Positions 2,521 to 15,193 of a stretch of DNA of 35,494 nucleotides are shown here, in pieces. The notes below the pieces were generated by a model, which was given only the letters and a program-made list of their open reading frames with translations, was not told where the DNA came from and did no database searches. Where the stretch lies: the NCBI GenBank assembly GCA_012035135.1, contig JAAUPI010000028.1, forward strand, positions 1-35,494, given 5' to 3'. The position numbers and the translations under genes were made by a program. The DNA is from Microcoleus sp. CSU_2_2. Lineage in GTDB: Bacteria > Cyanobacteriota > Cyanobacteriia > Cyanobacteriales > Microcoleaceae. The number at the start of each line of letters is the position of its first letter. The stretch's first letter is position 1.

Positions 2521-3439
2521 CTTTAGGTTTAACCAACTGAGCAATTCCAAAAGCTGCACCGAAACAGACAGCAGAGCCTAAAACCCCAGCAATGCTAGTA
2601 CCGATCGGCTGTTCTTCTAATCCTTTTACACTATAATCAGCAAGAGGAGTTGGATTTTCGATCGCCACAGCTTCTTTATCTTTAAAGCCGTATTTTTCGG
2701 CTACCGCTTCTAACCCGTCGGGCCAACTTGAAGCAAACAGCGACAGCACGCCAGAAATTAATAATACCCCAATTACTGGCACTAACCATTTCTGTAATTG
2801 TGGCTGTTCTCCTGGTAGTAAATCCGGCCGCACTTTCACCAGATAAGTTAAAACGCCACCTGTAATTAGCCCTTCGCCAATGCCAATTAAAATATGCACA
2901 CCTACCATTGCTGGAAGTGCGATATTCAGCGCTACTGTTCCAGAAATTGCTAGGGCGATCGTACAACAAATCGAAGCGGCAACGACACTGAGGGCGGCTG
3001 CAATCCCGGCAGCTAGTGGCAAACGATTTCTTGAACCTCCCAACAACCGCTGCAATGGCTGCAACAGCAACCAGCCAGCCCAAATTCCGACTAGCCCCAT
3101 ATTAAAAATATTCGCTCCCAGGGCGGTGATCCCCCCATCGGCAAATAAAACGCTCTGAATAATGAAAACCGTGCTCATCGCCAGAGTTGCCGCCCAAGGG
3201 TTCCCCAAAACCACCGAAGCTAGTGCGCCTCCCAGCAAGTGCCCGCTGGTGCCACCTGCTACGGGAAAGTTAATCATCTGGGCTGCAAACACGAAAGCTG
3301 TAGTTAAACCCATGATTGGGGCTTGTCGCAGCCCAAGACTGGCGCGGGTTCGATTCAGGGCAACCGCTATTGCTGCTGCACTTGCTATGCCGGTGGCAAT
3401 GGCTACGGTTGGTGAAAGAAAACCATCAGGTATGTGCAT
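2513..3439 (-). CDS. cbiM: Cobalt/nickel ECF transporter S component CbiM with fused PDGLE (CbiN/NikN-like) domain
   Basis: The 308-residue metal-binding membrane subunit. It opens with the invariant MHIPDGFLSP; in the NikM/CbiM family the N-terminal Met1-His2 and a later His (here H67 in SGHLLGG) coordinate the metal, and all are present. Residues 1-215 form the multi-helix CbiM part. The rest (VIGVLLISGVLSLFASSWPDGLE... and a final TM segment) is a PDGLE domain, the NikN/CbiN-like partner that is often a separate gene and is fused here. The order cbiM-cbiQ-cbiO is complete for an importer. I looked for a cobalamin riboswitch upstream and saw none. A Fur-box-like palindrome lies 266 bp upstream but may serve the divergent operon. 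Nickel or cobalt cannot be told apart by eye. Confidence 0.9.
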   Translation of the reverse strand: MHIPDGFLSPTVAIATGIASAAAIAVALNRTRASLGLRQAPIMGLTTAFVFAAQMINFPVAGGTSGHLLGGALASVVLGNPWAATLAMSTVFIIQSVLFADGGITALGANIFNMGLVGIWAGWLLLQPLQRLLGGSRNRLPLAAGIAAALSVVAASICCTIALAISGTVALNIALPAMVGVHILIGIGEGLITGGVLTYLVKVRPDLLPGEQPQLQKWLVPVIGVLLISGVLSLFASSWPDGLEAVAEKYGFKDKEAVAIENPTPLADYSVKGLEEQPIGTSIAGVLGSAVCFGAAFGIAQLVKPKDA

Positions 3440-3572
3440 CGATTTATCCCAAACGAGAGAACTCTCAACCTTTTAGTCAACTATTTTTTACAAAAATTAA
3501 CAATCCCCTCTGGGGGGATTGACTTTCCGAAGGCTGAGTTCATAAGTAGGGCTCACTTGAGACTTGTGAGAC

Positions 3573-3670
3573 TTACGCATGGGTGATCAGAAACCGGGTT
3601 TTTCACGGAATATCGTGCTTCCAACGCAGGATTTTCGTAAAAACCCGGTTTCTTTGATAGGAGTGCGTAA
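3573..3670. repeat. MITE-like palindromic repeat, AGAAACCGGGTTTTT family copy 1
   Basis: A nested palindrome. Outer arms are TTACGCA (3573-3579) and TGCGTAA (3664-3670). Inner arms AGAAACCGGGTTTTT (3589-3603) and AAAAACCCGGTTTCT (3639-3653) are a perfect 15-bp inverted repeat. The same inner arms recur at 13084-13147 and, in variant form, at 23002-23065. It is non-coding, between cbiM and the iron operon. Confidence 0.7.
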
Positions 3671-3703
3671 TTCCCTACAAAAAAAATCAGCACATGGCAA
3701 GTT

Positions 3704-3720
3704 TTGATAATTTTTATCAA
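3704..3720. promoter_or_regulatory. Candidate Fur box upstream of the FTR1 operon / cbiM divergent region
   Basis: TTGATAA-TTT-TTATCAA is a perfect inverted repeat. Read as a 7-1-7 site (3705-3719), it matches the Fur consensus TGATAAT-N-ATTATCA at 13 of 14 defined positions. It contains a GATAAT that could be a -10 element. It sits 384 bp before the plus-strand iron operon and 265 bp before cbiM. The match is seen in the sequence; Fur binding is inferred. Confidence 0.6.
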
Positions 3721-4103
3721 TAACTTTTAGCGGAGTCAACATCATGAGCCAACTAATGTAATGATTCTGTGAAAAGATTAAAAAAATATAAAGAATTAAT
3801 TGAAAGTCAATAATTGGTTTTATTCTGAACTGTTGAGAATCTATTGCATTACTTGCTCTCTGGAAAACAGCAGCTAGATCGCCAGCAATCCAGTAAAGCT
3901 AAAAGTTTTGAGTTTTAGAGCTACTAATGAGCCAGGTATATTACTAATAAGCTTGGTAGATTGCTATTTTATGTTTTTTAGATCGCGCGTCAGTTCGATC
4001 GGCTATTTTCCGCACAGGTGCATTCTCAACAACTTCAAAAAATTAATGCAACCATTCTCAAATACCTTCCTAAAATATCTACACTTAAGGAGAACCCCCA
4101 GCA
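3721..4103. other. Intergenic leader region before the iron operon
   Basis: About 380 bp, AT-rich, with no convincing ORF. AAGGAG at 4086-4091 precedes the GTG start at 4104. If transcription begins near the Fur-box-like site at 3704-3720, this would be an unusually long 5' leader; I could not identify a riboswitch class in it. Confidence 0.4.
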
Positions 4104-4736
4104 GTGCAACAATCAACCCAAGATTCCAATATCGATTTAGTTCCCTCAGAATTTCCCAAACAGTTAGATATCGCTCAAGTTTCTATCTACGGATTGAGCT
4201 TTTTATCTGCTGGGATGTTTCTGTTTTTACCTTTAGTTAACCTACTGCATCCGAGTCATTGGCAGCGGTTGATGGGAACCATTCACGGCATGGGTGCAAT
4301 GTTGGCAATGGTAGTGATGGTTTACACGGGGCATTTGGCTTTTCCCTTGCTGCGGGGATCTGGAAAAATCCTACCGCAAATGCGCACATTAGCTTTTTGG
4401 TCAAGCCTTTTGAGCTTTTTAGCTATCGCTACCGGCAACTGGGCTTATATGCGGTATCGGGCGGGCCTAGAATTCGGCGGAGCTCGCGCTTTGTTGAAAG
4501 AAAACTCGCCTTTAGTGCAGTACGTTTTGATGGAATATCACGAATTTAGCGTGCTGTTTACCTTGCCTTTAGCAGTAGCTTGTACTTGGATTTTGTGGAA
4601 TTACGGCGACAAAATTTTAGAAAAGCAAAATCGCCCGGTTTTAACCGCAACCTGCGTAGCTTTGATGGCAATCATGTTTTTTTCAATGGGCGGCATGGTA
4701 AGTGGCCTTGGCGTTGCTAAAATTCAGTCTCTGTAG
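4104..4736 (+). CDS. Multi-pass membrane protein with conserved-looking histidines, first gene of putative iron-uptake operon
   Basis: A 210-residue polytopic membrane protein, not assigned to a named family. Hydrophobic segments lie roughly at residues 28-48, 58-80, 95-115, 145-166 and 178-203. Histidines occur near segment ends at 49, 52, 61, 77 and 146 (for example LLHPSHWQRLMGTIHG and MEYHEF). This pattern could bind heme or metal in a cytochrome b561-like way, but that is speculation. The start is GTG at 4104 behind AAGGAG. It is the first gene after a Fur-box-like palindrome, and the downstream genes on the same strand include a ferritin-like protein and an FTR1 permease, which suggests a part in iron acquisition or ferric/ferrous redox handling at a membrane. 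Confidence 0.6.
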   Translation: MQQSTQDSNIDLVPSEFPKQLDIAQVSIYGLSFLSAGMFLFLPLVNLLHPSHWQRLMGTIHGMGAMLAMVVMVYTGHLAFPLLRGSGKILPQMRTLAFWSSLLSFLAIATGNWAYMRYRAGLEFGGARALLKENSPLVQYVLMEYHEFSVLFTLPLAVACTWILWNYGDKILEKQNRPVLTATCVALMAIMFFSMGGMVSGLGVAKIQSL

Positions 4737-4826
4737 TCAGTAGTCAGTAGTTATTCAACTATCAACTGTCAACTGTCCCAGGTCAACTATTTGCTGTCAA
4801 CTATCAACTGTCAACTATTAACTGTC
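4737..4826. repeat. Short tandem repeats (CAACTGT / AGTAGTC types)
   Basis: Intergenic array of AGTCAGT followed by several CAACTATCAACTGT units. Degenerate heptamer-like tandem repeats of this kind are common between genes in filamentous cyanobacteria. The gene before it and the reading frame after it point the same way. Confidence 0.65.
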
Positions 4827-4842
4827 TTAGGAGATTTGCGAA

Positions 4843-5315
4843 ATGACTCGACAATTATCCCGCCAAAATTTTGCGGGTGAAGAACCATTTTACGGAAAAC
4901 TTTGGAGCAAATTAAAACACTTTCCCAAGGGTTTATCTGAAGGTTCGGAAAATGCGCCTAGCGTTTCTGGCCCGGCAGCAGCAGCAATAATTAGCGCTGC
5001 AATTGGTTGTTTTACGATGATGGTGAGTCACCATTAGGGGACACATCCAAAGAAACAAACGAATGGCTTTGGAATCTCGGTAGTTGGATTCCGGGAAGCA
5101 AGACTAATGATGAATTGTGGGGCAACATCGGCAGCTACACGGGTAAAGAAACAATGTTGCTTATCGGTTGGCTTGTCAGTTGGCCGATACTTCATGCGAT
5201 TTGGAAAAATAAGAGCGTGAAAAGCCGCACCATATTTTTCTGGATGTTTGCTTTGTTAGTTGCTGCGACAGCTATGTCTTGGCATCCTTTATTCCCCTAT
5301 TTGCCGTTAACTTAA
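4843..5315 (+). pseudogene. Small membrane protein gene interrupted by a one-base frameshift
   Basis: Two adjoining frames look like one protein of about 157 residues. The first (4843-5037) gives 64 residues ending in CFTMMVSHH at a TAG stop. The second continues in the -1 frame with LGDTSKETNEWLWNLGS and runs to 5315 with two more membrane segments. Adding one T near 5032-5034 (CATTAG to CATTTAG) restores ...SHHLGDTS... without a gap. The ATG at 5007 that opens the second frame lies inside the first frame and has no good ribosome site, so separate translation is unlikely. No slippery heptamer is visible. Either this is a real inactivating mutation or a sequencing error. The family is not recognised; the product would have three hydrophobic segments, and its place in the operon suggests it belongs with the FTR1 system. 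Confidence 0.6.
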
Positions 5316-5334
5316 GTAATTGCGAGGTTTGATG

Positions 5335-6072
5335 ATGGAAACAAAAAATAAGCCACTCCCAGCCAGGGAGATGCACAAAATAGTTTGGATTAGTATGGGA
5401 GTTTTGGTTCTTTTCTTTGTAACTTTTCCCATCTCCATGTGGCGCGTTAGCCAAAAAGAAAAGTTTCGCGGTTTTCACGTCAAGTCTTTGACTATTGAAG
5501 GGAAAAATCCAGCTAAAGCAGCAGATGCTGTTGCTAATAAACCGGCGGAACCTTCTATTGCCAGTAGCGCTGCACTGCCGGCGGCAAGTAATGCCAATTT
5601 AGCTGTTAGCGGTCAAAAAAATCTGCCCGAAAAGTCTCCTAATGCTGTACCTTTCACCAATCAGTCTGCTGCGACGGCTATTGCGAGTAGCCCTACAGAT
5701 AAGACTGTCCAAGCTGTGCCCGTGTCAGCAGGCAAGCAGGAAATTCAGGCAGCCGAAGGAACTAATCGAGCAGCAGAAATTACCGATCGCACTCAGCTAG
5801 AGGAGTTAACTCTGAAAGTGTACGATCGAATTAACGAAAGTTGGCAAACTAGCCCTACCTTCAATCAAAATCTAGTCTATCGAGTCAGTGCAAGTCAAGA
5901 TGGGGCGATCGGTCATTTCGAGCCCCTCAATCAACCAGCCAAGGATTACAGCCAAGAAACTCCTTTGCCAAATCTGCTCAAATCTTCCGAAAGTAGCAGC
6001 AGTAGTGCAGCATCAGTAGCTAAGTTGACAGTAGTATTTGCTCCTACTGGAACCTTAGAAGTTAACCCGTAA
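5335..6072 (+). CDS. Membrane-anchored protein of TonB-like layout (N-terminal TM, Ala/Ser/Pro-rich linker, C-terminal domain)
   Basis: About 245 residues from the ATG at 5335, with GAGG seven bases upstream; ATG 5332 and a TTG at 5320 are alternatives. A single N-terminal membrane helix (IVWISMGVLVLFFVTFPISM) is followed by roughly 100 residues of Ala/Ser/Asn/Pro-rich linker. A compact C-terminal domain begins LEELTLKVYDRINESW and continues NLVYRVSASQDGAIGHFEPL, ending LTVVFAPTGTLEVNP. Anchor, extended linker and a small domain with an amphipathic helix followed by a V-x-V...DG strand is the layout of TonB/TolA proteins. I see this only at the level of architecture, not as a clear TonB signature. 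Between a membrane protein and a ferritin/FTR1 pair, a periplasmic accessory role in iron uptake is plausible. Confidence 0.55.
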   Translation: METKNKPLPAREMHKIVWISMGVLVLFFVTFPISMWRVSQKEKFRGFHVKSLTIEGKNPAKAADAVANKPAEPSIASSAALPAASNANLAVSGQKNLPEKSPNAVPFTNQSAATAIASSPTDKTVQAVPVSAGKQEIQAAEGTNRAAEITDRTQLEELTLKVYDRINESWQTSPTFNQNLVYRVSASQDGAIGHFEPLNQPAKDYSQETPLPNLLKSSESSSSSAASVAKLTVVFAPTGTLEVNP

Positions 6073-6188
6073 CTCACCTACAATATCTATCCTGTAAGGT
6101 GCACAGTGTGCACCTTACTTTTACTTGTTAACTTAAATATGATATTATAACCAATGCCCTTTAAGGCATTCTACATCTAAAACAACAA

Positions 6189-6623
6189 ATGAAAGAACTT
6201 GACGACAAAAAAACCCAAGAACTGCTATGCACCATCATGGAATGGGAACTAGCAGGTGTCGTGCGCTACACCCACTATGCACTCATGGTAACAGGACCAA
6301 ACCGGATTCCCATCGTGCAGTTTTTTCAAGCACAAGCAACAGAATCCCTACTCCACGCCCAACAAGCCGGAGAAATTTTAACAGGTTTAGATGGGCATCC
6401 CAGCCAAAAAATTGCTCCCATCGAAGAAACCTACAAACACTCCATCAAAGACTTGTTGGAAGAAAGCTTAAATCACGAGAAAAAAGCGCTCAAAAAGTAT
6501 AAATCCCTACTTGAAGTCGTCACAGACTCCAGCATTTACTTGGAAGAATATGCCCGCACTCTGATTGGACAAGAAGAATTGCACCAAGTAGAACTCAAAA
6601 AAATGCTGCGGGACTATAGTTGA
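6189..6623 (+). CDS. Ferritin-like (bacterioferritin-type) protein
   Basis: A 144-residue four-helix-bundle protein of the ferritin-like superfamily in the form common in cyanobacteria (EWELAGVVRYTHYALMV near the N-terminus). Candidate di-iron ligands are E18/E20 in helix 1, E52 with H56 in TESLLHAQQ, E92 region in SLNHEKKALKKY, and the E-x-x-H of GQEELHQVE in the last helix. Such proteins oxidise and store Fe(II) or protect against it. It lies 116 bp after the TonB-like gene and 141 bp before FTR1 on the same strand, so it could buffer iron entering through the permease. Whether it is a storage cage or a small ferritin-like oxidase cannot be told from sequence alone. Confidence 0.8.
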   Translation: MKELDDKKTQELLCTIMEWELAGVVRYTHYALMVTGPNRIPIVQFFQAQATESLLHAQQAGEILTGLDGHPSQKIAPIEETYKHSIKDLLEESLNHEKKALKKYKSLLEVVTDSSIYLEEYARTLIGQEELHQVELKKMLRDYS

Positions 6624-6625
6624 GT

Positions 6626-6720
6626 TAGTCTCTTGGTAATTGGTAATCGGTAATTGGTAATTGGTAATTGGTGATTGGTAATGCCCGATGCGCAATTACG
6701 AATTACCAATGCTTTTCTGC
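6626..6720. repeat. Short tandem repeats (GGTAATT type) with inverted copies
   Basis: Several TTGGTAATTGG(T) units in a row, followed by inverse ATTACCAATGC/CCCAAT units, giving hairpin potential between the ferritin-like gene and FTR1. Typical intergenic repeat of filamentous cyanobacteria. Confidence 0.6.
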
Positions 6721-6764
6721 CCAATATCCAATGCCCAATTCCCAATTTCTAAGAATTATAAAAA

Positions 6765-7727
6765 ATGAATTTTACTGAAGCCATCCCAACTTTTGTAATA
6801 ACCCTCCGCGAAGGCGTAGAAGCAGCCTTAGTGGTCGGAATTGTCCTAGCTTGCTTAAAAAAAGCCGAGCAAAGTTACCTCAATTCTTGGGTTTATGCAG
6901 GTGTGGGAGCCGGAATTGCTGCTAGCGCTTTTGTGGGAGTATTGTTTAATGGATTGCTCGCAGCACTATCGACATCTAATCAGCCTTACGCACCGGTAAT
7001 GAAACAGCTATTAGAGGGCGTTTTGGGCATTGTGGCGATCGCCATGCTAAGCTGGATGCTAATTTGGATGACTCAGCAAGCCCGTTTTCTCAAAGCTGAA
7101 GTGGAAGGGGCAGTTACAGCAGCTTTGCAAGAAAATAATCAAGTCGGCTGGGGCATATTCGGCTTAATTTTTATCGCCGTACTTCGCGAAGGTTTTGAAA
7201 CAGTTATATTTGTCAGCGCTCAATTTCAACAAGGTTTAACTCCTGCTTTAGGTGCTTTGGGCGGTTTGATTGGAGCGGCAATCGTTGGTTCCCTAATTTT
7301 TAAGTGGGGTGTCAAAATTGATATTCGCCAGTTTTTCAAGTTCATGGGGATTTTGTTGCTGCTAATCGTAGCCGGTTTAGCAGTATCTGCACTCAAACAT
7401 TTTGACCAAGCGGCGGCTATTTTGTCGCAGACGGATAGCAAGTATGCAGCTATTTGTGTTTATTTCGATCGCACGGCACAAATCCATTCCTGTATTTTAG
7501 GCCCGCTGGTGTGGAATGCAGAGGCAATTTTGCCCGATCGGCAATTTCCGGGAGTGCTTCTGAAGACACTATTTGGATACAGAGATCGACTTTATCTCAT
7601 CCAAGCTGCGGTTTACATAACATTTTTAGCCACCATCGGCAATCTTTATTTCCAAAAACTAGCCGGTAAGGCAACCGTTTCGGACAACAATACTCAGCCT
7701 ACTCAAGAGACAACAATCGTTCCGTAG
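6765..7727 (+). CDS. FTR1 family high-affinity iron permease
   Basis: A 320-residue multi-pass membrane permease. The two defining REGxE iron-binding motifs are present in hydrophobic contexts: R15-E16-G17-V18-E19 (TLREGVEAALVVGIV) and R141-E142-G143-F144-E145 (VLREGFETVIF). The length and roughly seven TM segments fit bacterial FTR1/EfeU proteins, which import iron, usually with an oxidase or periplasmic partner. No EfeO/EfeB or multicopper oxidase is encoded here. The upstream genes (two membrane proteins, a TonB-like anchor protein, a ferritin-like protein) are candidate partners. The nearest regulatory signal is the Fur-box-like palindrome at 3704-3720 at the head of the gene group. Confidence 0.92.
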   Translation: MNFTEAIPTFVITLREGVEAALVVGIVLACLKKAEQSYLNSWVYAGVGAGIAASAFVGVLFNGLLAALSTSNQPYAPVMKQLLEGVLGIVAIAMLSWMLIWMTQQARFLKAEVEGAVTAALQENNQVGWGIFGLIFIAVLREGFETVIFVSAQFQQGLTPALGALGGLIGAAIVGSLIFKWGVKIDIRQFFKFMGILLLLIVAGLAVSALKHFDQAAAILSQTDSKYAAICVYFDRTAQIHSCILGPLVWNAEAILPDRQFPGVLLKTLFGYRDRLYLIQAAVYITFLATIGNLYFQKLAGKATVSDNNTQPTQETTIVP

Positions 7728-8039
7728 TTGTCAACCCTTTGCTTGCCTACCCACCCAGAATTTTCTCTAATCCCTCAAATCAACGGAAAAACCTCTCTTC
7801 CGAAGTCTTGCCCGCAGGTAGATGTTCCACTCCAGGCAGGATTTTTGGCGATCGCCCTTTCTAATAGACACCCTTAGCACTTATAATTAGTACAACAATT
7901 TTTACATAGCTCAAAAAGTTCTTAATAAACCTTATAATCCTTAATGAAGCTTAAAATTAGTAAATTGTTAGTTAAAGTTACCTGGAACCCCCAGAAGGCT
8001 GTACCCTCCCCCATCTGGTTAGTAATGAGATAAATAATG
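7728..8039. other. Intergenic region upstream of rpaA
   Basis: About 310 bp with no credible ORF. It is AT-rich from about 7880 to 7980, as expected for a promoter region, but I cannot assign a -35/-10 pair with confidence. One TTTTACAT occurs, but not the paired direct repeat expected of an RpaB (HLR1) site. Confidence 0.35.
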
Positions 8040-8777
8040 ATGCCTCGGATACTTGTTATTGATGATGACGCGGCGATTGCCGAACTCGTAGCCGTCAACC
8101 TAGAAATGGCTGGCTACGAAGTCACCCAGGCTGAAGACGGCATCAAAGGTCAGGCACTAGCCATACAACTGCTGCCTGACCTGATCATGCTAGACCTGAT
8201 GCTGCCTAGAGTAGATGGATTCACCGTATGTCAGCGTTTGCGACGGGACGATCGTACCGCCGACATTCCCGTCTTGATGTTGACCGCCTTAAGTCAAACT
8301 CAAGATAAAGTAGAAGGCTTCAACTCCGGCGCCGACGATTACCTGACCAAACCCTTTGAACTAGAAGAGATGCTGGCACGAGTGCGAGCTCTACTGAGGC
8401 GCACAGACCGCATCCCCCAAGCAGCCAAACACTCCGAAATCCTCAATTACGGCCCGCTGACCCTTGTCCCCGAAAGGTTTGAAGCTGTTTGGTACGTTAA
8501 GACAGTCAAACTGACCCACCTAGAGTTCGAGTTGCTCCACTGCTTACTCCAGCGTCACGGTCAAACAGTCTCTCCCAGCGAAATTCTCAAAGAAGTCTGG
8601 GGTTACGATCCCGACGACGACATCGAAACAATTCGCGTACACATCAGACACCTGAGAACCAAGATGGAACCCGATCCCCGCCATCCTCGGTACATCAAAA
8701 CTGTATACGGGGCGGGTTATTGCTTGGAGTTGCCGAGCAACGAGCAAGTAGCCGAGGAAAGCAAATCATCTGCTTGA
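8040..8777 (+). CDS. rpaA: OmpR-family response regulator RpaA
   Basis: A two-domain response regulator: receiver domain at residues 1-120 (acidic triad in VIDDD, phospho-acceptor Asp in [11 protein letters not shown], Lys of YLTKPFE) and a C-terminal winged-helix DNA-binding domain ([21 protein letters not shown] to YGAGYCLEL). The near-complete stretches [20 protein letters not shown] and [20 protein letters not shown] identify RpaA, not RpaB. In cyanobacteria RpaA is phosphorylated by SasA and is the main output regulator of the circadian clock, and was first linked to phycobilisome coupling to photosystem I. Two ATGs (8037, 8040) are in frame; 8040 ([10 protein letters not shown]) matches known RpaA starts. 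A strong terminator follows. Confidence 0.92.
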
Positions 8778-9308: not shown

Positions 9309-10388
9309 GTGACAAACATGGCAAAAACATCCTTCCCAGCCGAAGGAGAAACCTTTCCCTGGTGGGCCGGGAACGCCCGCTTGATCAACCTTTCCGGTCG
9401 TCTGCTAGGCGCCCACGTCGCCCAGGCCGGCCTCATCGTCCTCTGGGCGGGAGCTTATACCCTATTTGAGCTTTCCCGTTTCAACCCAGAATTGCCGATG
9501 TACGAACAAGGCTTAATTCTGCTCCCCAACCTAGCCAGACTAGGCTTGGGAGTCGGTGCCGGAGGCAAAATAGTTGATACTTATCCATATTTTCAGATTG
9601 GTGTGATACACCTAATCAGTTCAGCCTTTCTCGGCTTCGGCGGCATCTTCCACTCCCTCATAGGAGAAGCCACCCTCGAAGAAAGAACTCCTTTCTTCGG
9701 CTACAAATGGGAAGACAAAGACAAAATGACCACCATCTTGGGCATCCACCTAGTTTTGCTAGGTATCGGTGCCTTCTTGTTGGTGGCCAAAGCTATGTAT
9801 TTCGGTGGTTTGTATGATACCACGATCGGGCAAGTGCGGGTAATTTCCGATCCCACTTTCAACCCGGCTGTGATTTTCGGCTATCTGTTCGGTGCAGGTG
9901 GCAAACACTGGCTCGCCTCTGTTGACAACCTCGAAGATGTTGTCGGCGGACATATGTGGGTAGGAATTCTCTGCGTAGTCGGCGGGTTGTGGCACATTCG
10001 CACTCAACCTTTTGCTTGGACAAAACGGCTCTTCATCTGGTCAGGGGAAGCTTACCTCTCCTACAGTCTCGGCGCTTTAGCTTTAATGGGCTTCATCGCC
10101 ACCTACTTTGTCTCAGTCAACACCCTGGTTTACCCAGAGGAATTCTACGGCCCGGCCCTAAAAATTGGCTTCGAGCAGTTTCCCTACTTTCACAACGAAG
10201 GAATGCTGACCTCCCGCGTCTGGTTGGCTAACACCCACTTCTGGCTCGCTTTCTTCTTTTTGCAAGGACATTTCTGGCACGCTTTGCGAGCAGCAGGATT
10301 TGACTTCCGCCAAGGCAAAGTCGTGCAACCAATGCGCGAAGACATCCAGCCGGGGGGCGAAGGAATCGCAGCCAGTCCAGCCAGTTAA
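9309..10388 (+). CDS. CP43-like chlorophyll-binding antenna protein (IsiA/Pcb family), cluster gene 1
   Basis: A 359-residue six-helix chlorophyll a-binding protein related to CP43 but lacking its large lumenal loop, as in all IsiA/Pcb proteins. Family hallmarks include [64 protein letters not shown] and [19 protein letters not shown], with many His residues in hydrophobic helices as chlorophyll ligands. The start is GTG at 9309 with AGAGGT eight bases upstream; ATG 9318 is spaced too far. It is the first of four such genes and 22 bp from the next, so co-transcribed. It is closer to Pcb-type paralogs than to IsiA itself. Codons are more C-ending than in the last gene of the cluster. It presumably serves under iron limitation with photosystem I or II. 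Confidence 0.9.
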
Positions 10389-10410
10389 CCACACCAGGAG
10401 GAAAGCAAAA

Positions 10411-11886
10411 ATGCAAGCAATCGCAGATCCGAATTTAATCCCAGAGCCGGACAAGCCAGAAAGCGAGTACGGCTGGTGGGCCGGCAACGCCCGCTTCATC
10501 GACCTTTCAGGACGAATTTTAGGAGCTCACGTAGCTCACGCGGGTTTGATTGTACTCTGGGCCGGGGCGATGACCCTGTTTGAACTGTCGAATTTCAACC
10601 CAGAGTTGCCGATGTACGACCAAGGTTTAATCCTGTTGCCACACTTGGCAAGTTTGGGTTTGGGAGTAGGACATGGTGGTCAAATTGTTGATACCTATCC
10701 CTATTTTGCGATCGGAGTTGTGCATTTAATTAGTTCTACCGTTCTCGGTGCCGGTGGACTTTACCATTCCTTGCTCGGCCCGAAAGTATTGCCGCAAAAC
10801 AAAACATTCTTTGGTTCCTTCGGCTACGACTGGGAAGACAAAGACAAAATGACAACCATCATCGGCATTCACCTATTACTGTTAGGTGCAGGTGCTTGGT
10901 TGTTGGTGGCAAAAGCTGTATTTTGGGGCGGTCTTTACGATCCCCACGTTGCTGGCGTGCGGGTAATTAGCGAACCGACGCTCAATCCCGCCCGCATTTT
11001 CAGCTATCTTTTGCCAGTGCACGGCCCTGAAGGAATGGCAGCAGTTGACAACTTAGAAGATGTTGTCGGCGGTCACATTTATGTTGGCTTGCTCTGCATT
11101 CTTGGCGGTTTCTGGCATATTTTCACCAAGCCTTTTGCTTGGGCCGAGCGAGTTTTGTTTTGGTCTGGAGAAGCTTACCTTTCTTACAGTTTGGGCGCTC
11201 TGGCTTATATGGGCTTTTTGGCGGCCTACTTTGTGACTGTAAATGACACTGTTTATCCAGAGGTTTTTTACGGCCCGGTGGGTTTGAGTGGCCCAGATGT
11301 AGTGGTTGTTTCTTCGCGGACTTGGCTAGCAACAAGCCACTTTGTGTTAGCGATTTTGGCGCTTTCCGGTCACATTTGGCACGCCTTGCGCGTTCGGACA
11401 AAAGCAGCGGGATTTGACTTTCGATCGGGAGATTTTGTAACAGCAACTCCTGCCGTGGTTCAAGTTGCAAGTGCAGCAACAGCCGTGAGTTTTTCCGATG
11501 TGACTGTAACTTTTTTGCGGAATTTGCCGATTTACCGCAAAGGATTGTCTCCCATAGTCAGGGGATTAGAAGTTAGCTTGGCTCACGGCTATTTCCTGGT
11601 AGGAGCTTTTGCAGTATTGCTGCCTTTACAAGAAAAAGGTTTAGCACCGCTGGCCGGATTGCTGGCAACTCTGGTACTGGTGTTGATTTTGGCAATGGGA
11701 CTCTCGGTTTACGAGAGTCATAACGTCGAAGCAGGTAAAGTTTTGTACTGGCATAAAACGCCGGAAGATTGGAGTTTGTTCCGGGGCGGTTTGGTGATGG
11801 GCGGTACGAGTGGAGCTTTCCTCGCTTATTTACTGCTAGACAACTTTGCTGGCATTGATGCAATTTTCCGAGGTGTTGTGAACTGA
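10411..11886 (+). CDS. Chlorophyll-binding IsiA/Pcb-PsaL fusion protein
   Basis: From the ATG at 10411 (strong AGGAGG at 10396-10401) the protein has 491 residues. Residues 1 to about 345 are a CP43-like antenna ([47 protein letters not shown]). From about 365 to the end it resembles photosystem I subunit Psa[34 protein letters not shown], two hydrophobic helices, and [20 protein letters not shown]. PsaL forms the contact between PSI monomers, so the fusion probably docks an antenna at the PsaL position of PSI. Such fusions are known from multi-gene isiA clusters of other cyanobacteria (the CBP-V type, also called IsiX). The frame is open upstream to 10300 but that overlaps gene 1 and lacks a ribosome site. 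Confidence 0.9.
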
Positions 11887-11901
11887 TCGGCAATGCCAAA
11901 T

Positions 11902-11958
11902 AACCTGGTTTCGGCTTGCTACCTGCGTCCTAATACCTTCAATAAACCCGGTTTCTCT
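11902..11958. repeat. Degenerate copy of the AACCCGGTTTCT repeat family
   Basis: TAACCTGGTTTCGG and TAAACCCGGTTTCT occur 30 bases apart in direct, not inverted, orientation in the gap before isiA. They resemble the right arm of the palindromic family found at 3573-3670, 13084-13147 and 23002-23065, and look like an eroded copy. Confidence 0.4.
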
Positions 11959-12016
11959 TCCGCTCATAGTTCAATCGAGTTCACACCAAACAAGTACAAC
12001 AAGGAAACAAAAAACG

Positions 12017-13051
12017 ATGCAAACCTACGATAATCCCAACGTTAAATATGACTGGTGGGCCGGCAATGCCAGGTTCGCCAATCTTTCGGGATATTTCATT
12101 TCCGCTCACGTCGGTCAAGCAGCTTTAATTACTTTCTGGGCAGGAGCATTTACTCTGTTTGAAATCTCTCGCTACAACCCAGCAATCCCTATGGGTGAAC
12201 AGGGTTTAATTTTGCTTCCCCACCTAGCAACTCTTGGTTTAGGTGTAGGATCTGGCGGCAAGATAGTCGATACTTATCCGTATTTTGTAGTCGGAATGGT
12301 ACACCTCATTTCATCTGCTGTTTTAGGTGCTGGTGCTTTATTTCACACTTTTAAAGGGCCTAAAAGCTTGAAAGATGCTAAAGGTCGTGCTGGGAAGTTT
12401 CACTTTGAATGGGAAGACCCGAAAAAGTTGGGCTTCATCCTAGGACATCACCTGATTTTCCTAGGTGCAGGGGCGCTGCTATTGGTAGCAAAAGCGATGT
12501 TTTTCGGCGGTTTGTATGACTCGACAATTCACGAAGTCCGGACTGTTGTCAGCCCTACTCTCGATCCGTTAGTTATCTACGGCTATCAAACTCATTTTGC
12601 CAGCGTTGACAATTTGGAAGATTTAGTTGGCGGTCACATTTATGTCGGGATTATGCTCATTCTTGGTGGAGTTTGGCACATTGTCAAAGAGCCATTTCCT
12701 TGGGCGAAGAAAGTATTGAGTTTCTCTGGGGAAGCTATTCTTTCCTACTCTCTCGGCGGTATTGCTTTGGCAGGGTTTACAGCGGCTTATTTCTGTGCAG
12801 TGAATACTTTAGCTTATCCCGTTGAATTCTACGGGCCTGTGCTGGATATCAAGCTTGGTGTTAGCCCTTATTTTGCAGATACGGTTCAATTACCACTCGG
12901 CGCTCATACTCCTCGCTGCTGGTTGGCAAATGCTCATTTCTTCTTAGCTTTCTTCTGCTTGCAAGGTCATTTATGGCACGCTCTACGGGCGATCGGCTTC
13001 AATTTCAAGCAAGTTGAAACTTCCTTGAATGCGGTAGGAACTGAGTCGTAA
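12017..13051 (+). CDS. isiA: Iron-stress-induced chlorophyll-binding protein IsiA (CP43')
   Basis: A 344-residue protein that begins [20 protein letters not shown], the standard IsiA start, and keeps IsiA-specific stretches such as [56 protein letters not shown] and [16 protein letters not shown]. IsiA forms multi-subunit chlorophyll rings around trimeric photosystem I and free aggregates that dissipate energy when iron is scarce. It has six TM helices with His ligands. AAGGA precedes the ATG by about 11 bases. It is the third gene of the antenna cluster, 130 bp after the PsaL fusion. No separate Fur-box-like site was found directly upstream, so the site at 9239-9253 may drive the whole group. 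No isiB (flavodoxin) follows. Confidence 0.95.
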
Positions 13052-13083
13052 GACTTAAACACTCCTGGACGCACTTCCACCAA

Positions 13084-13147
13084 AGAAACCGGGTTTTTAC
13101 CGAATCTACGGGTGACAACACGTCTTTTCATAAAAAACCCGGTTTCT
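13084..13147. repeat. AGAAACCGGGTTTTT palindromic family, copy 2
   Basis: AGAAACCGGGTTTTT (13084-13098) and AAAAACCCGGTTTCT (13133-13147) form a perfect 15-bp inverted repeat around 34 bases, with the same arms as 3589-3653. It lies between isiA and the next antenna gene and could fold as a transcript hairpin there. Confidence 0.7.
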
Positions 13148-13226
13148 GACCCAAGGAATGCGGCGGGCAACAACACTTAAGTTAGAAATTGCCCGCCCTA
13201 ACTATAATTTTACGAGGTAAAGAACT

Positions 13227-14192
13227 GTGACAATTGCTAACATTAATGACTTTGGACGGGATGGAAATAATGTTAAGTGGTGGCTTGGTAATGCCCGCTT
13301 AACTGATTTGTCGGGTAGATTGTTGGGGGCTCATGTTGCTCATGCGGGTTTGATTATGTTTTGGGCGGGAGCAACTACTATTTCGGAGGTTTCTCGTTTT
13401 GTACCAAACACGCCGATGTACGAGCAAAATCTGACCTTACTTCCGCATTTAGCAACTTTGGGTTGGGGTGTTGGTGCTGGAGGTGCGGTAATTGATACTT
13501 ATCCTTATTTTGCGATCGGCATATTGCATTTAGTTGCATCGGCTGTGTTGGGTGCTGGAGGTCTTTTTCATGTTTTTCGTGGTCCGGCAATTTTGCACAA
13601 TGGAGGCGAACTTGGTGCTCTGTTTCACTATGAATGGAATGACGCTAAGAAACTGGGTTTCATTTTGGGAAGTCACTTAATTGTTTTAGGATTGGGTGCT
13701 TTTCTGCTAGTTCTCAAAGCGATGAAGTTTGGGGGGATTTATGACATTGCCATTGATGATATACGCCTGATTACTAATCCTAATCTGAATCCAGCAACAA
13801 TTTTTGGCTATCTGTTTGGATTTGCTAATGGTGGCTGGACAATCTTAGGAATGGCTGCTGTTAATAATTTGGAGGATGTGATTGGGGGTCATATTTGGAT
13901 TGGTGCAATGTTAATTGCAGGTGGTGTATGGCACACTCGCGTTGAGCCTTTCCCTTGGGCTAAGCGACTTTTAATTATTAATGCCGATGCTCTTCTTGCT
14001 TACAGTTTGGGGGGTTTAGCTTTCATGGCTTTTGTTTCCTGTGCTTTCGCAGGATATAACACGACTGTTTATCCTGTGGAATTCTACGGGATCGATCGCC
14101 TCGGCTTGACAAATGCACAATTTTTCTTAGGTATAACAGCGCTTGCGGGTCACATCTGGCACGCTTCTCGCGCCCGTCTTAATAGAAACTAA
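13227..14192 (+). CDS. CP43-like chlorophyll-binding antenna protein (IsiA/Pcb family), cluster gene 4
   Basis: A 321-residue member, shorter than its three neighbours because the C-terminus stops soon after the last helix ([16 protein letters not shown]). Core motifs are kept: [74 protein letters not shown]. Notable changes from IsiA are [11 protein letters not shown] replaced by [11 protein letters not shown] and the loop before the last helix cut down to [16 protein letters not shown]. The start is GTG 13227 behind GAGGT. Codons are strongly T/A-ending, unlike gene 1. It probably corresponds to the fourth paralog class (CBP-VI) seen in similar clusters of other cyanobacteria; this assignment is from memory of the family. 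Confidence 0.85.
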
Positions 14193-14674: not shown

Positions 14675-15193
14675 ATGAATTTATACAGTGCTAACTCACT
14701 CAAAGTGGAACTCAACCAAAGAGGTTGTCGTCTGACTCCCCAGCGAGAAACTATTTTGAGTGTCTTTCAAAATCTGCGACAAGGAAATCATTTGAGTGCG
14801 GAAGAATTATATAATATTTTGCATAATCAACGAGAAAAAATAGGCTTGTCTACTGTATACCGAACGCTGCACTTATTAGCAAGAATTGGGATTTTACGAG
14901 AGCTAGAATTGGCAGAGGGACACAAACATTACGAACTAAACTTGCCCGATATGCACCACCACCACCACCACCTGGTTTGCATTCAGTGTCACAAGACTTT
15001 TGAATTTAGCGATGAATCGATTTTAAAAATCGGCAAAAAGCAAGTTGAAAAAGCTGGTGTAGAATTGCTTGACTGTCAGTTAACGGTGCGGGCTGTTTGT
15101 TTGGAAGCGCTGCGGGAGGGATGGCCTTCTATGGTGCCGAGCAATTGGTCGTGTCCGAGATCTCATTCAGAAATGGAGGATGAGATTAGTTAA
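14675..15193 (+). CDS. Fur family transcriptional regulator (FurA-like)
   Basis: 172 residues. The N-terminal winged helix (LKVELNQRGCRLTPQRETIL, LSTVYRTLHLLARIGILREL) and dimerisation domain match cyanobacterial FurA. Metal/heme-relevant residues are seen: H83/H85 in EGHKHYE, a natural six-His run at 94-99, and the first structural C-x-x-C at C102/C105 (VCIQC). The usual second C-x-x-C near the end of FurA (VCPKC) is altered: only C142 remains (VCLEA), followed by an unusual 30-residue tail with one more Cys (C160). FurA represses isiA and iron-uptake genes when iron is ample; this copy lies beside its expected targets. Whether it is the main Fur or a paralog with changed sensing is open. 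No obvious Fur box precedes it. Confidence 0.88.
   Translation: MNLYSANSLKVELNQRGCRLTPQRETILSVFQNLRQGNHLSAEELYNILHNQREKIGLSTVYRTLHLLARIGILRELELAEGHKHYELNLPDMHHHHHHLVCIQCHKTFEFSDESILKIGKKQVEKAGVELLDCQLTVRAVCLEALREGWPSMVPSNWSCPRSHSEMEDEIS

Follow-up and report, generated by a model that had tools for sequence, protein, structure and literature searches.

We analysed a 35,494-nt stretch of DNA from the cyanobacterium Microcoleus sp. CSU_2_2 (contig JAAUPI010000028.1, hereafter the window; contig C175 of an 84%-complete genome of 5.4 Mb in 357 contigs), in which three membrane protein genes, here called M, S, and T, precede genes for a ferritin-like protein (FER) and an FTR1 iron permease. All five genes lie on the plus strand behind a palindrome resembling a Fur site, and their order and coordinates proved to be as given in a preliminary description made from the sequence before any database search. 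M (4104–4736, +) encodes a 210-aa membrane protein with five long helices in its structural model and near-invariant histidines at H61, H77, and H146. S (4843–5315, +) encodes a small membrane protein, 157 aa long in the nearest relatives and frameshifted here near position 5034, with invariant histidines H64 and H148 and a segment resembling the WWD region of CcsA. T (5335–6072, +) is predicted to be a one-helix anchor, whose first ~60 aa are conserved and whose clade-specific C-terminal domain shows weak TonB_2 similarity. None of these three proteins reached a Pfam or NCBIfam model at its cut-off. FER (6189–6623, +) matches PF00210 with an E value of 4.6e-16. FTR1 (6765–7727, +) matches PF03239 (E = 7e-52) with 176.9 bits against a curated cut-off of 25.3, which places it in the permease family; it scores below the NCBIfam TIGR00145 and EfeU cut-offs. 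Its translation contains two REXXE motifs (REGVE and REGFE), which we take to be the defining feature of FTR1/EfeU permeases. Motifs of the type R/K-E-X-X-E are mentioned for fungal Ftr1 in a passage of PMC7676907.

A scan of GTDB genomes located M in 28 loci, the nearest named relatives of the window's locus being Microcoleaceae/Oscillatoriales. Behind M, S was found in 26 of the 28 loci and T likewise in 26; S is absent from two decayed loci (L035 and L036), and no T match was obtained in L032 and L034. M occurred in 7 of the 98 genomes of a first even sample of the phylum, all from the window's order, and in 25 of 338 Cyanobacteriia genomes. M, S, and T therefore form a real unit whose genes travel together. 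Several other observations were made around this unit. A protein with RTX/HAF repeats (DUF3466-like) recurs beside the trio in several genera (L010, L015, L016 at 3642–5540, L021, L022, L025, L027 with the HAF part only, L080–L082, and L091), and vanadium-haloperoxidase-like genes or fragments lie near it at L024:1296–2594, L025:13672–14322, and in L010 near 9946, with a Pfam check made on L024 only. Two M-bearing contigs labelled Candidatus Gracilibacteria (L024, M at 78% identity) and Richelia (L012, M at 91% identity) look cyanobacterial of Oscillatoriales type by eye and are probably binning or labelling errors.

FTR1 is common in the class, being present in 258 of the 338 genomes and mostly without M. 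We examined the surroundings of M in all 25 M genomes (in most cases 7 kb ahead of the gene and 10 kb behind it, with one side very short in G097 and G317) and found FTR1 at a distance of 1.1–3.1 kb in seven of them: G039, G335, G022, G087, G207, G307, and the window, where the distance is 2.0 kb. These genomes span four families (f1, f6, f18, and f16), and in G307 the permease gene lies upstream of M, with an RTX/HAF protein between the two. Among the 28 GTDB loci, FER was seen in 18 and FTR1 in 16, mostly from one clade, and ten loci had neither within the DNA available, including L026 and L033 on short pieces. FER also adjoins FTR1 in genomes without M (for example G019, G062, and G005). 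The preliminary description had named conservation of the neighbourhood with FTR1 as the check on its proposal and regarded the three families as bystanders should they not occur with FTR1 elsewhere. The outcome is divided: FTR1 lies 1–3 kb from the trio in seven genomes of four families but is absent from the flanks of the other 18; outside the window's genus, 4 of 22 M genomes have it in their flanks, and one M genome (G265, 87% complete) gave no FTR1 match at all.

In three relatives, the trio is part of a larger cluster that also encodes a multicopper oxidase (MCO) and a lipoprotein (LIP). L075 (G022), L076 (G087), and L028 share the one-strand order MCO, M, S, T, LIP, FER, FTR1, with an extra open reading frame (ORF) between MCO and M in the first two and, in the third, a TENA-like gene on the opposite strand that separates T from LIP. 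L094 (G207) shows MCO, an M fragment, LIP, FER, and FTR1, and in L095 (G323) what remains of M and T lies between MCO and LIP. Pfam assigns Cu-oxidase_2 and Cu-oxidase_3 domains to the oxidase, whose best solved relatives are the multicopper oxidases 3gdc and 7rab. LIP yields in Pfam just a short HHH motif, in two forms; we considered and rejected an identity with EfeO, since neither an M75 family in Pfam nor an imelysin match in the PDB was found. A very distant LIP-M-S set was also encountered in G199 (L096:7582–9486), with M ~31% identical, no FTR1 in the flanks examined, and a solute-binding protein further on.

The same partners are widespread without the trio. LIP was detected in 123 of the 338 genomes (E 0.001) and this type of MCO in 122 (E 1e-60). 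All 20 MCO places that we fetched, mostly picked because FTR1 was listed nearby, have the order MCO, LIP, FTR1, with FER before FTR1 in seven; four of these places come from M genomes (G347, G199, G172, and G335) at positions away from M. On the same strand within 4 kb, LIP accompanies MCO in at least 102 of 114 cases and FTR1 in at least 46 of 77, FER accompanies FTR1 in at least 23 of 46, and MCO accompanies FTR1 in at least 37 of 74; these counts are lower bounds, being based on 150 rows for FTR1 (part of its places), 77 of 110 for FER, and 116 for LIP, the last without N-terminal fragments. MCO-LIP-(FER)-FTR1 is thus a widespread cyanobacterial cluster that also exists without M-S-T (L099–L118 are among its loci), and MCO and LIP are likely the ferroxidase and lipoprotein partners of cyanobacterial FTR1. 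Because this cluster occurs widely without the trio, we regard M-S-T as an add-on and not as a general FTR1 partner. The preliminary description had remarked that the window holds no oxidase or periplasmic partner for FTR1. This is correct for the window, and searches of its 84%-complete genome returned neither MCO (at E 1e-60) nor LIP (at E 0.001); the same applies to G039. The further suggestion that the three proteins are the missing partners needs revision: the trio does recur beside FTR1, but the general partners are MCO and LIP, which it accompanies and does not replace. As a rule, replacement of MCO by the trio is ruled out by the occurrence of MCO in 16 of the 25 M genomes compared with 98 of the 313 others (the latter count leaves out eight genomes with weaker MCO rows only, and kinship is uncorrected).

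S and M carry features reminiscent of heme proteins. Of 21 S rows, ten match PF01578 (Cytochrom_C_asm, the family of CcsA, CcmC, and CcmF), with a best E value of 4.2e-05 that is below the curated cut-off; the C-terminal half of the window's S scores 15 bits against a cut-off of 29.9. We built a CcsA profile from the CcsA proteins of eight of these genomes and ran it over the 1,067 ORFs of loci L009–L118, where ranks 1–31 were all S members (best E 2e-4, duplicate loci included). Alignment with hhalign put S on the WGSYWSWDPKETW segment of CcsA with 38% identity over 39 columns, and the ungapped S-CcsA identity of 15/45 compares with a maximum of 13 in 2,000 shuffles. Judged by these comparisons, S appears to resemble the WWD segment of CcsA specifically, if weakly. 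H64 and H148 flank the WWD-like segment in 45 of 45 rows (39 distinct), and a periplasmic position of both was read tentatively from charge by eye. PMC6299221 places the heme sites of CcsBA at a transmembrane His pair and at a WWD domain with a periplasmic His on either side.

The histidines of M are similarly conserved: H61 in 50 of 50 rows, H77 in 49 of 50, and H146 in 48 of the 48 rows with a letter at that position (53 rows, 49 distinct). His counts and profile rows include duplicate loci such as L011/L074, L030/L084, L032/L086, and L034/L089, and the His rows for S do not contain the distant G199 protein. The G199 set keeps M-H61, M-H146, and an equivalent of S-H64 and has lost M-H77 and S-H148 (S judged by eye). 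In the structural model of M, which has a mean predicted local distance difference test (pLDDT) score of 74.8, H61 and H146 lie close to where the second and fourth long helices begin, which would bring them to one membrane face, and H77 lies towards the other. Among the membrane proteins matched by this model are cytochrome bd, b561, Dcytb, and CcmF. Two other identities for M were discarded: as a split CcsA, it gives nothing in hhalign against CcsA, and the weak Pfam names it attracts (Mpo1-like and PilS; best E 0.0017, 6 of 21 rows) were judged to be chance for a membrane protein.

In T, conservation is confined to the first ~60 residues, which hold a single membrane helix and a short stretch containing KS. 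What follows differs between clades: the Microcoleus group has a domain of its own, T of L026 (2299–2892) is fused to WD40 repeats, and in the other relatives aligned the end is short or missing, so that by its sequence T reads as a one-helix anchor carrying different outer domains in different clades. For the Microcoleus-type domain, we found no second copy in the genome and no notable solved relative. The architecture of T had initially been called TonB-like. Some similarity exists, with weak TonB_2 hits in six of ten Microcoleus-type C-terminal ends (best E 0.014, below cut-off), but it lies outside the conserved part of the protein, and the window's copy, at 13.9 bits against a cut-off of 22, falls outside the TonB domain family. 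A TonB-like part is not the conserved function of T, because it is short, missing, or replaced outside the Microcoleus group.

Upstream of M lies the 7-1-7 palindrome TTGATAATTTTTATCAA (3704–3720), which has one mismatch to TGATAATNATTATCA; the Fur site originally proposed here therefore holds as a sequence match. It is the sole site in the window with fewer than three mismatches and one of two in the 5.4 Mb genome with at most one mismatch to the 17-mer. Sites with up to three mismatches number 107 in the genome compared with 81 for a reversed control, a modest excess. Across 16 Microcoleus-type upstream regions (L003 was excluded as a copy of L011), the palindrome is present with at most two mismatches in nine and with three in two, and it is absent from five (Markov-1 control 0.07, which ignores shared descent). 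Three octamers match the core of the FurA consensus, which we took from the Anabaena consensus AAATAAATTCTCAATAAAT as given in part of PMC4005646: TTGAGAAT at 3833–3840, which starts the longer element TTGAGAATNNNTTGCATTA, and ATTCTCAA at 4022–4029 and again at 4054–4061. At least two such octamers occur in all 16 regions (control 0.018, again ignoring shared descent), and the palindrome and the three octamer blocks stand out as conserved islands within an otherwise poorly conserved leader of ~400 bases. The element TTGAGAATNNNTTGCATTA (3833–3851) and its near reverse complement (4044–4061), ~190 bases apart, form a conserved inverted element. A Fur-type operator is thus present upstream of M as a sequence match, which would make the locus a candidate member of the Fur regulon. 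Assignment to Zur was rejected, since the cyanobacterial Zur motif NTNANAATGATNATCATTNTNAN, in the section of PMC9337993 that describes it, requires a TGATNATCA core, which the window site does not have; ATGATAATCATTATCAT-type sites elsewhere in the genome fit the Zur motif by eye. Eight other genome sites have at most two mismatches; one of them, which precedes a porin-like gene (L049), is clearly in promoter position, and therefore no regulon could be built. A genome search with TTGAGAATNATTCTCAA returned 87 sites compared with 25 for the reversed control, yet the best of them were not tied to iron genes.

The wider surroundings of the five genes also bear on iron. Downstream on the plus strand follow an OmpR-family response regulator (8037–8777; best NCBIfam match RpaB, below its cut-off), four IsiA/Pcb-type chlorophyll proteins in a row (9309–14192), the second with a PsaL-like C-terminal end, and a Fur-family regulator (14675–15193; best matches to Fur models, below their cut-offs). 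The order of IsiA/Pcb-type row and Fur-family gene downstream of FTR1 is repeated in L074 (G039). Because of these genes, the stretch reads as an iron-stress island. Genes for CbiM, CbiQ, and an energy-coupling factor ATPase lie divergently upstream of the locus. No Rfam match was found across 3300–8100, and the M-S (4737–4835) and FER-FTR1 (6633–6700) spacers are filled by short degenerate tandem repeats of the GTCAACTATCAACT and TTGGTAATTGG types.

The frameshift noticed earlier in S is indeed present in this contig, where the gene is split near 5034 with a net loss of one base. We attribute it to an assembly error or a private mutation, because the reading frame is intact in each of the 21 copies that were aligned from other loci. 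M itself is decayed or partial in L035, L036, G335, G207, G323, and G112; the trio is decayed at its locus in L036 (Microcoleus vaginatus) and in L093 (G335), and G335 carries another FTR1, together with MCO and LIP, at a separate place (L118). Following T, an intrinsic-terminator-like hairpin of 11 pairs with a T-run occupies 6094–6118 (+), and a hairpin with a T-run was also found in the spacers or spacer starts of L018, L019, L023, and L035, giving 5 of 16 together with the window. A promoter-like match at 6120–6148 is of a kind no commoner there than in shuffles. The five genes had been described as an operon. Since the hairpin and T-run follow T, we consider a single transcript doubtful and refrain from calling the five genes one operon.

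These results suggest that the M-S-T trio may belong to an iron uptake system. The earlier view of the three proteins as parts of an iron importer gains from their travelling together, from the FTR1 linkage, from the iron-stress island, and from the FurA-type elements in the Microcoleus group, and it is limited by the extent of that linkage. For Synechocystis, part of PMC11221513 reports up-regulation of ftr1 in iron deficiency. As for mechanism, we tentatively prefer a reading to which we give less than an even chance, namely that M-S-T is a heme-bearing transmembrane redox complex for iron acquisition, probably a ferric reductase feeding FTR1. M, S, and T would form one inner-membrane complex, in which S would hold an external heme between H64 and H148, beside the WWD-like segment, and M would hold a second heme with H61 and H146 at one membrane face, H77 being at the other. 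Electrons crossing the membrane through this complex would reduce periplasmic Fe(III), as the yeast Fre reductases do. The Fe(II) would be re-oxidised by the neighbouring MCO where there is one and by oxygen where there is none, as in the window, and the resulting Fe(III) would be imported by FTR1 and taken up inside by FER, with T anchoring variable extracytoplasmic modules. A more specific version appears rather unlikely to us: a new heme redox complex, made of a cut-down CcsA-like module (S) and the five-helix M, would act as ferric reductase in a bacterial system corresponding to the yeast Fre-Fet3-Ftr1, with the full form MCO-M-S-T-LIP-FER-FTR1 in a few cyanobacteria and a reduced form, without MCO and LIP, in the IsiA/Fur island of the window.

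A number of results weigh against the ferric reductase. Heme binding by M and S is a reasoned guess from conserved histidines and a structural model, and the direction of electron flow is a further guess. The hhalign probability is 21% for S against the CcsA profile and 11.5% against one CcsA, and the S alignment shows a WGNIGSYTGKET-type segment in which the WWXD signature is absent. The S model (mean pLDDT 70.7) gave no convincing fold match, and the fold matches of M reach Z scores of 10 to 12, which designed helical bundles equal. The charge pattern does not settle the topology of M, and at the position of T-H14, which might pair with M-H77, 4 of 46 rows have Q. With regard to genomic context, 18 of the 25 M genomes lack FTR1 in the flanks examined, several have an RTX/HAF-repeat protein beside the trio in its stead, and the terminator-like hairpin separates the trio from FER-FTR1. 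Furthermore, five MCO-headed trio loci have no good Fur-type box upstream (the start of L028 being approximate), and of 20 regions of 350 bases ahead of MCO clusters, 4 contain FurA-type octamers; because these loci gave few or no boxes, the Fur link holds for the Microcoleus group only.

The 18 genomes without FTR1 nearby and the RTX/HAF neighbour in several genera would also suit a trio that serves another metal or surface proteins and whose place in the iron island is accidental or reflects shared regulation, as would G172, where the trio adjoins genes resembling, by eye, a metal ABC transporter, a porin, a Fur-family regulator, and KatG. We consider this unlikely, as the linkage to FTR1 recurs in four families and two arrangements, far above the ~0.5% per genome expected by position (a rough estimate from genome size and copy number). 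If, instead, the trio were a membrane Fe(II) oxidase, its external heme would oxidise Fe(II) and pass electrons inward to the quinone pool, replacing MCO or EfeB for FTR1. This would account for FTR1 and the trio in the window's genome and G039, neither of which gave an MCO or LIP match at the E values above, and for the presence of MCO and LIP in all four of the sampled genomes whose M is decayed or fragmentary (G335, G207, G323, and G112). However, MCO is found in 12 of the 21 remaining M genomes, twice in the same cluster, so there is no one-for-one exchange, and G019, G062, and G005 carry FER-FTR1 without M and with no MCO or LIP row among those listed. An oxidase therefore seems decidedly unlikely; a reductase is favoured over it because it fits both the MCO-containing and the MCO-free forms, of which an oxidase fits only the latter well.

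Handling of heme as cargo, either in a CcsBA-like transfer to an exported heme protein or in the salvage of heme iron, strikes us as improbable. The similarity of S to CcsA and the two His around a W/G-rich loop would agree with it, and a passage of PMC6299221 has CcsBA exporting heme via a transmembrane site and an external WWD/P-His site. Yet S lacks WWXD, and in the loci read, in which not every flanking ORF was scanned, no apocytochrome or heme enzyme was recognised as a recurring neighbour, the recurring ones being MCO, LIP, FER, FTR1, and RTX/HAF. Finally, a trio acting as a TonB/ExbBD analogue, with T energising outer-membrane iron receptors, is highly improbable, for the weak TonB_2 hits belong to a C-terminal domain that is short or missing outside the Microcoleus group and gives way to WD40 in L026, and the loci read, in which no dedicated search was made, showed no recognisable TonB-dependent receptor.

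Comparison with known systems places the ferric reductase reading more precisely. The yeast Fre-Fet3-Ftr1 system shares the FTR1 permease, the MCO (in the same cluster in three relatives), and a candidate heme membrane protein; the Fre proteins, however, are flavohemoproteins according to part of PMC7676907, and family searches with M and S returned no ferric reductase. EfeUOB and EfeU-type systems likewise combine an FTR1/EfeU-family permease with extracytoplasmic partners, but no EfeO/EfeM (M75/imelysin) or EfeB (DyP) was present among the neighbours scanned, the rest of the genome not being searched, and the partners in relatives are an MCO with two Cu-oxidase domains and LIP. With the CcsA/CcmC/CcmF family (PF01578), S shares the alignment to the WWD segment and the following helix and the two invariant His flanking that segment, whereas it has about three membrane helices, no WWXD, and a score below the curated cut-off, and no cytochrome c maturation context was seen at the trio loci. 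Cytochrome b561, Dcytb, and cytochrome bd subunit I resemble M at the level of the fold, as helical membrane bundles with conserved His in the helices, but structural alignments show 8 to 11% identity and Z scores at the level of designed bundles. Closest in gene content is the cyanobacterial MCO-LIP-(FER)-FTR1 cluster, with FER and FTR1 in common and the intact trio between MCO and LIP in L075, L076, and L028 (remnants in L094 and L095), the difference being that the window and, as searched, its genome are without MCO and LIP. We found no description of the trio or of this cluster in the titles and abstract beginnings of open-licence literature on FTR1 with cyanobacteria, MCO, EfeUOB, or Microcoleus.

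In conclusion, M-S-T is an accessory unit at some of the FTR1 loci of cyanobacteria; its gene linkage is real and its mechanism a hypothesis. The route by which cyanobacteria reduce inorganic iron and then bring it through the inner membrane is not settled; PMC7676907 gives a respiratory terminal oxidase (ARTO) and a cyanobacterial FTR1 as proposals. The MCO-LIP-FTR1 cluster is useful in itself, since it names a likely ferroxidase and a lipoprotein partner for cyanobacterial FTR1. With its probable heme ligands and its linkage to FTR1, and in places to MCO, the trio provides named candidate genes for inorganic iron uptake. If the proposed reading is true, FTR1-mediated uptake in cyanobacteria would be tied to copper and heme.

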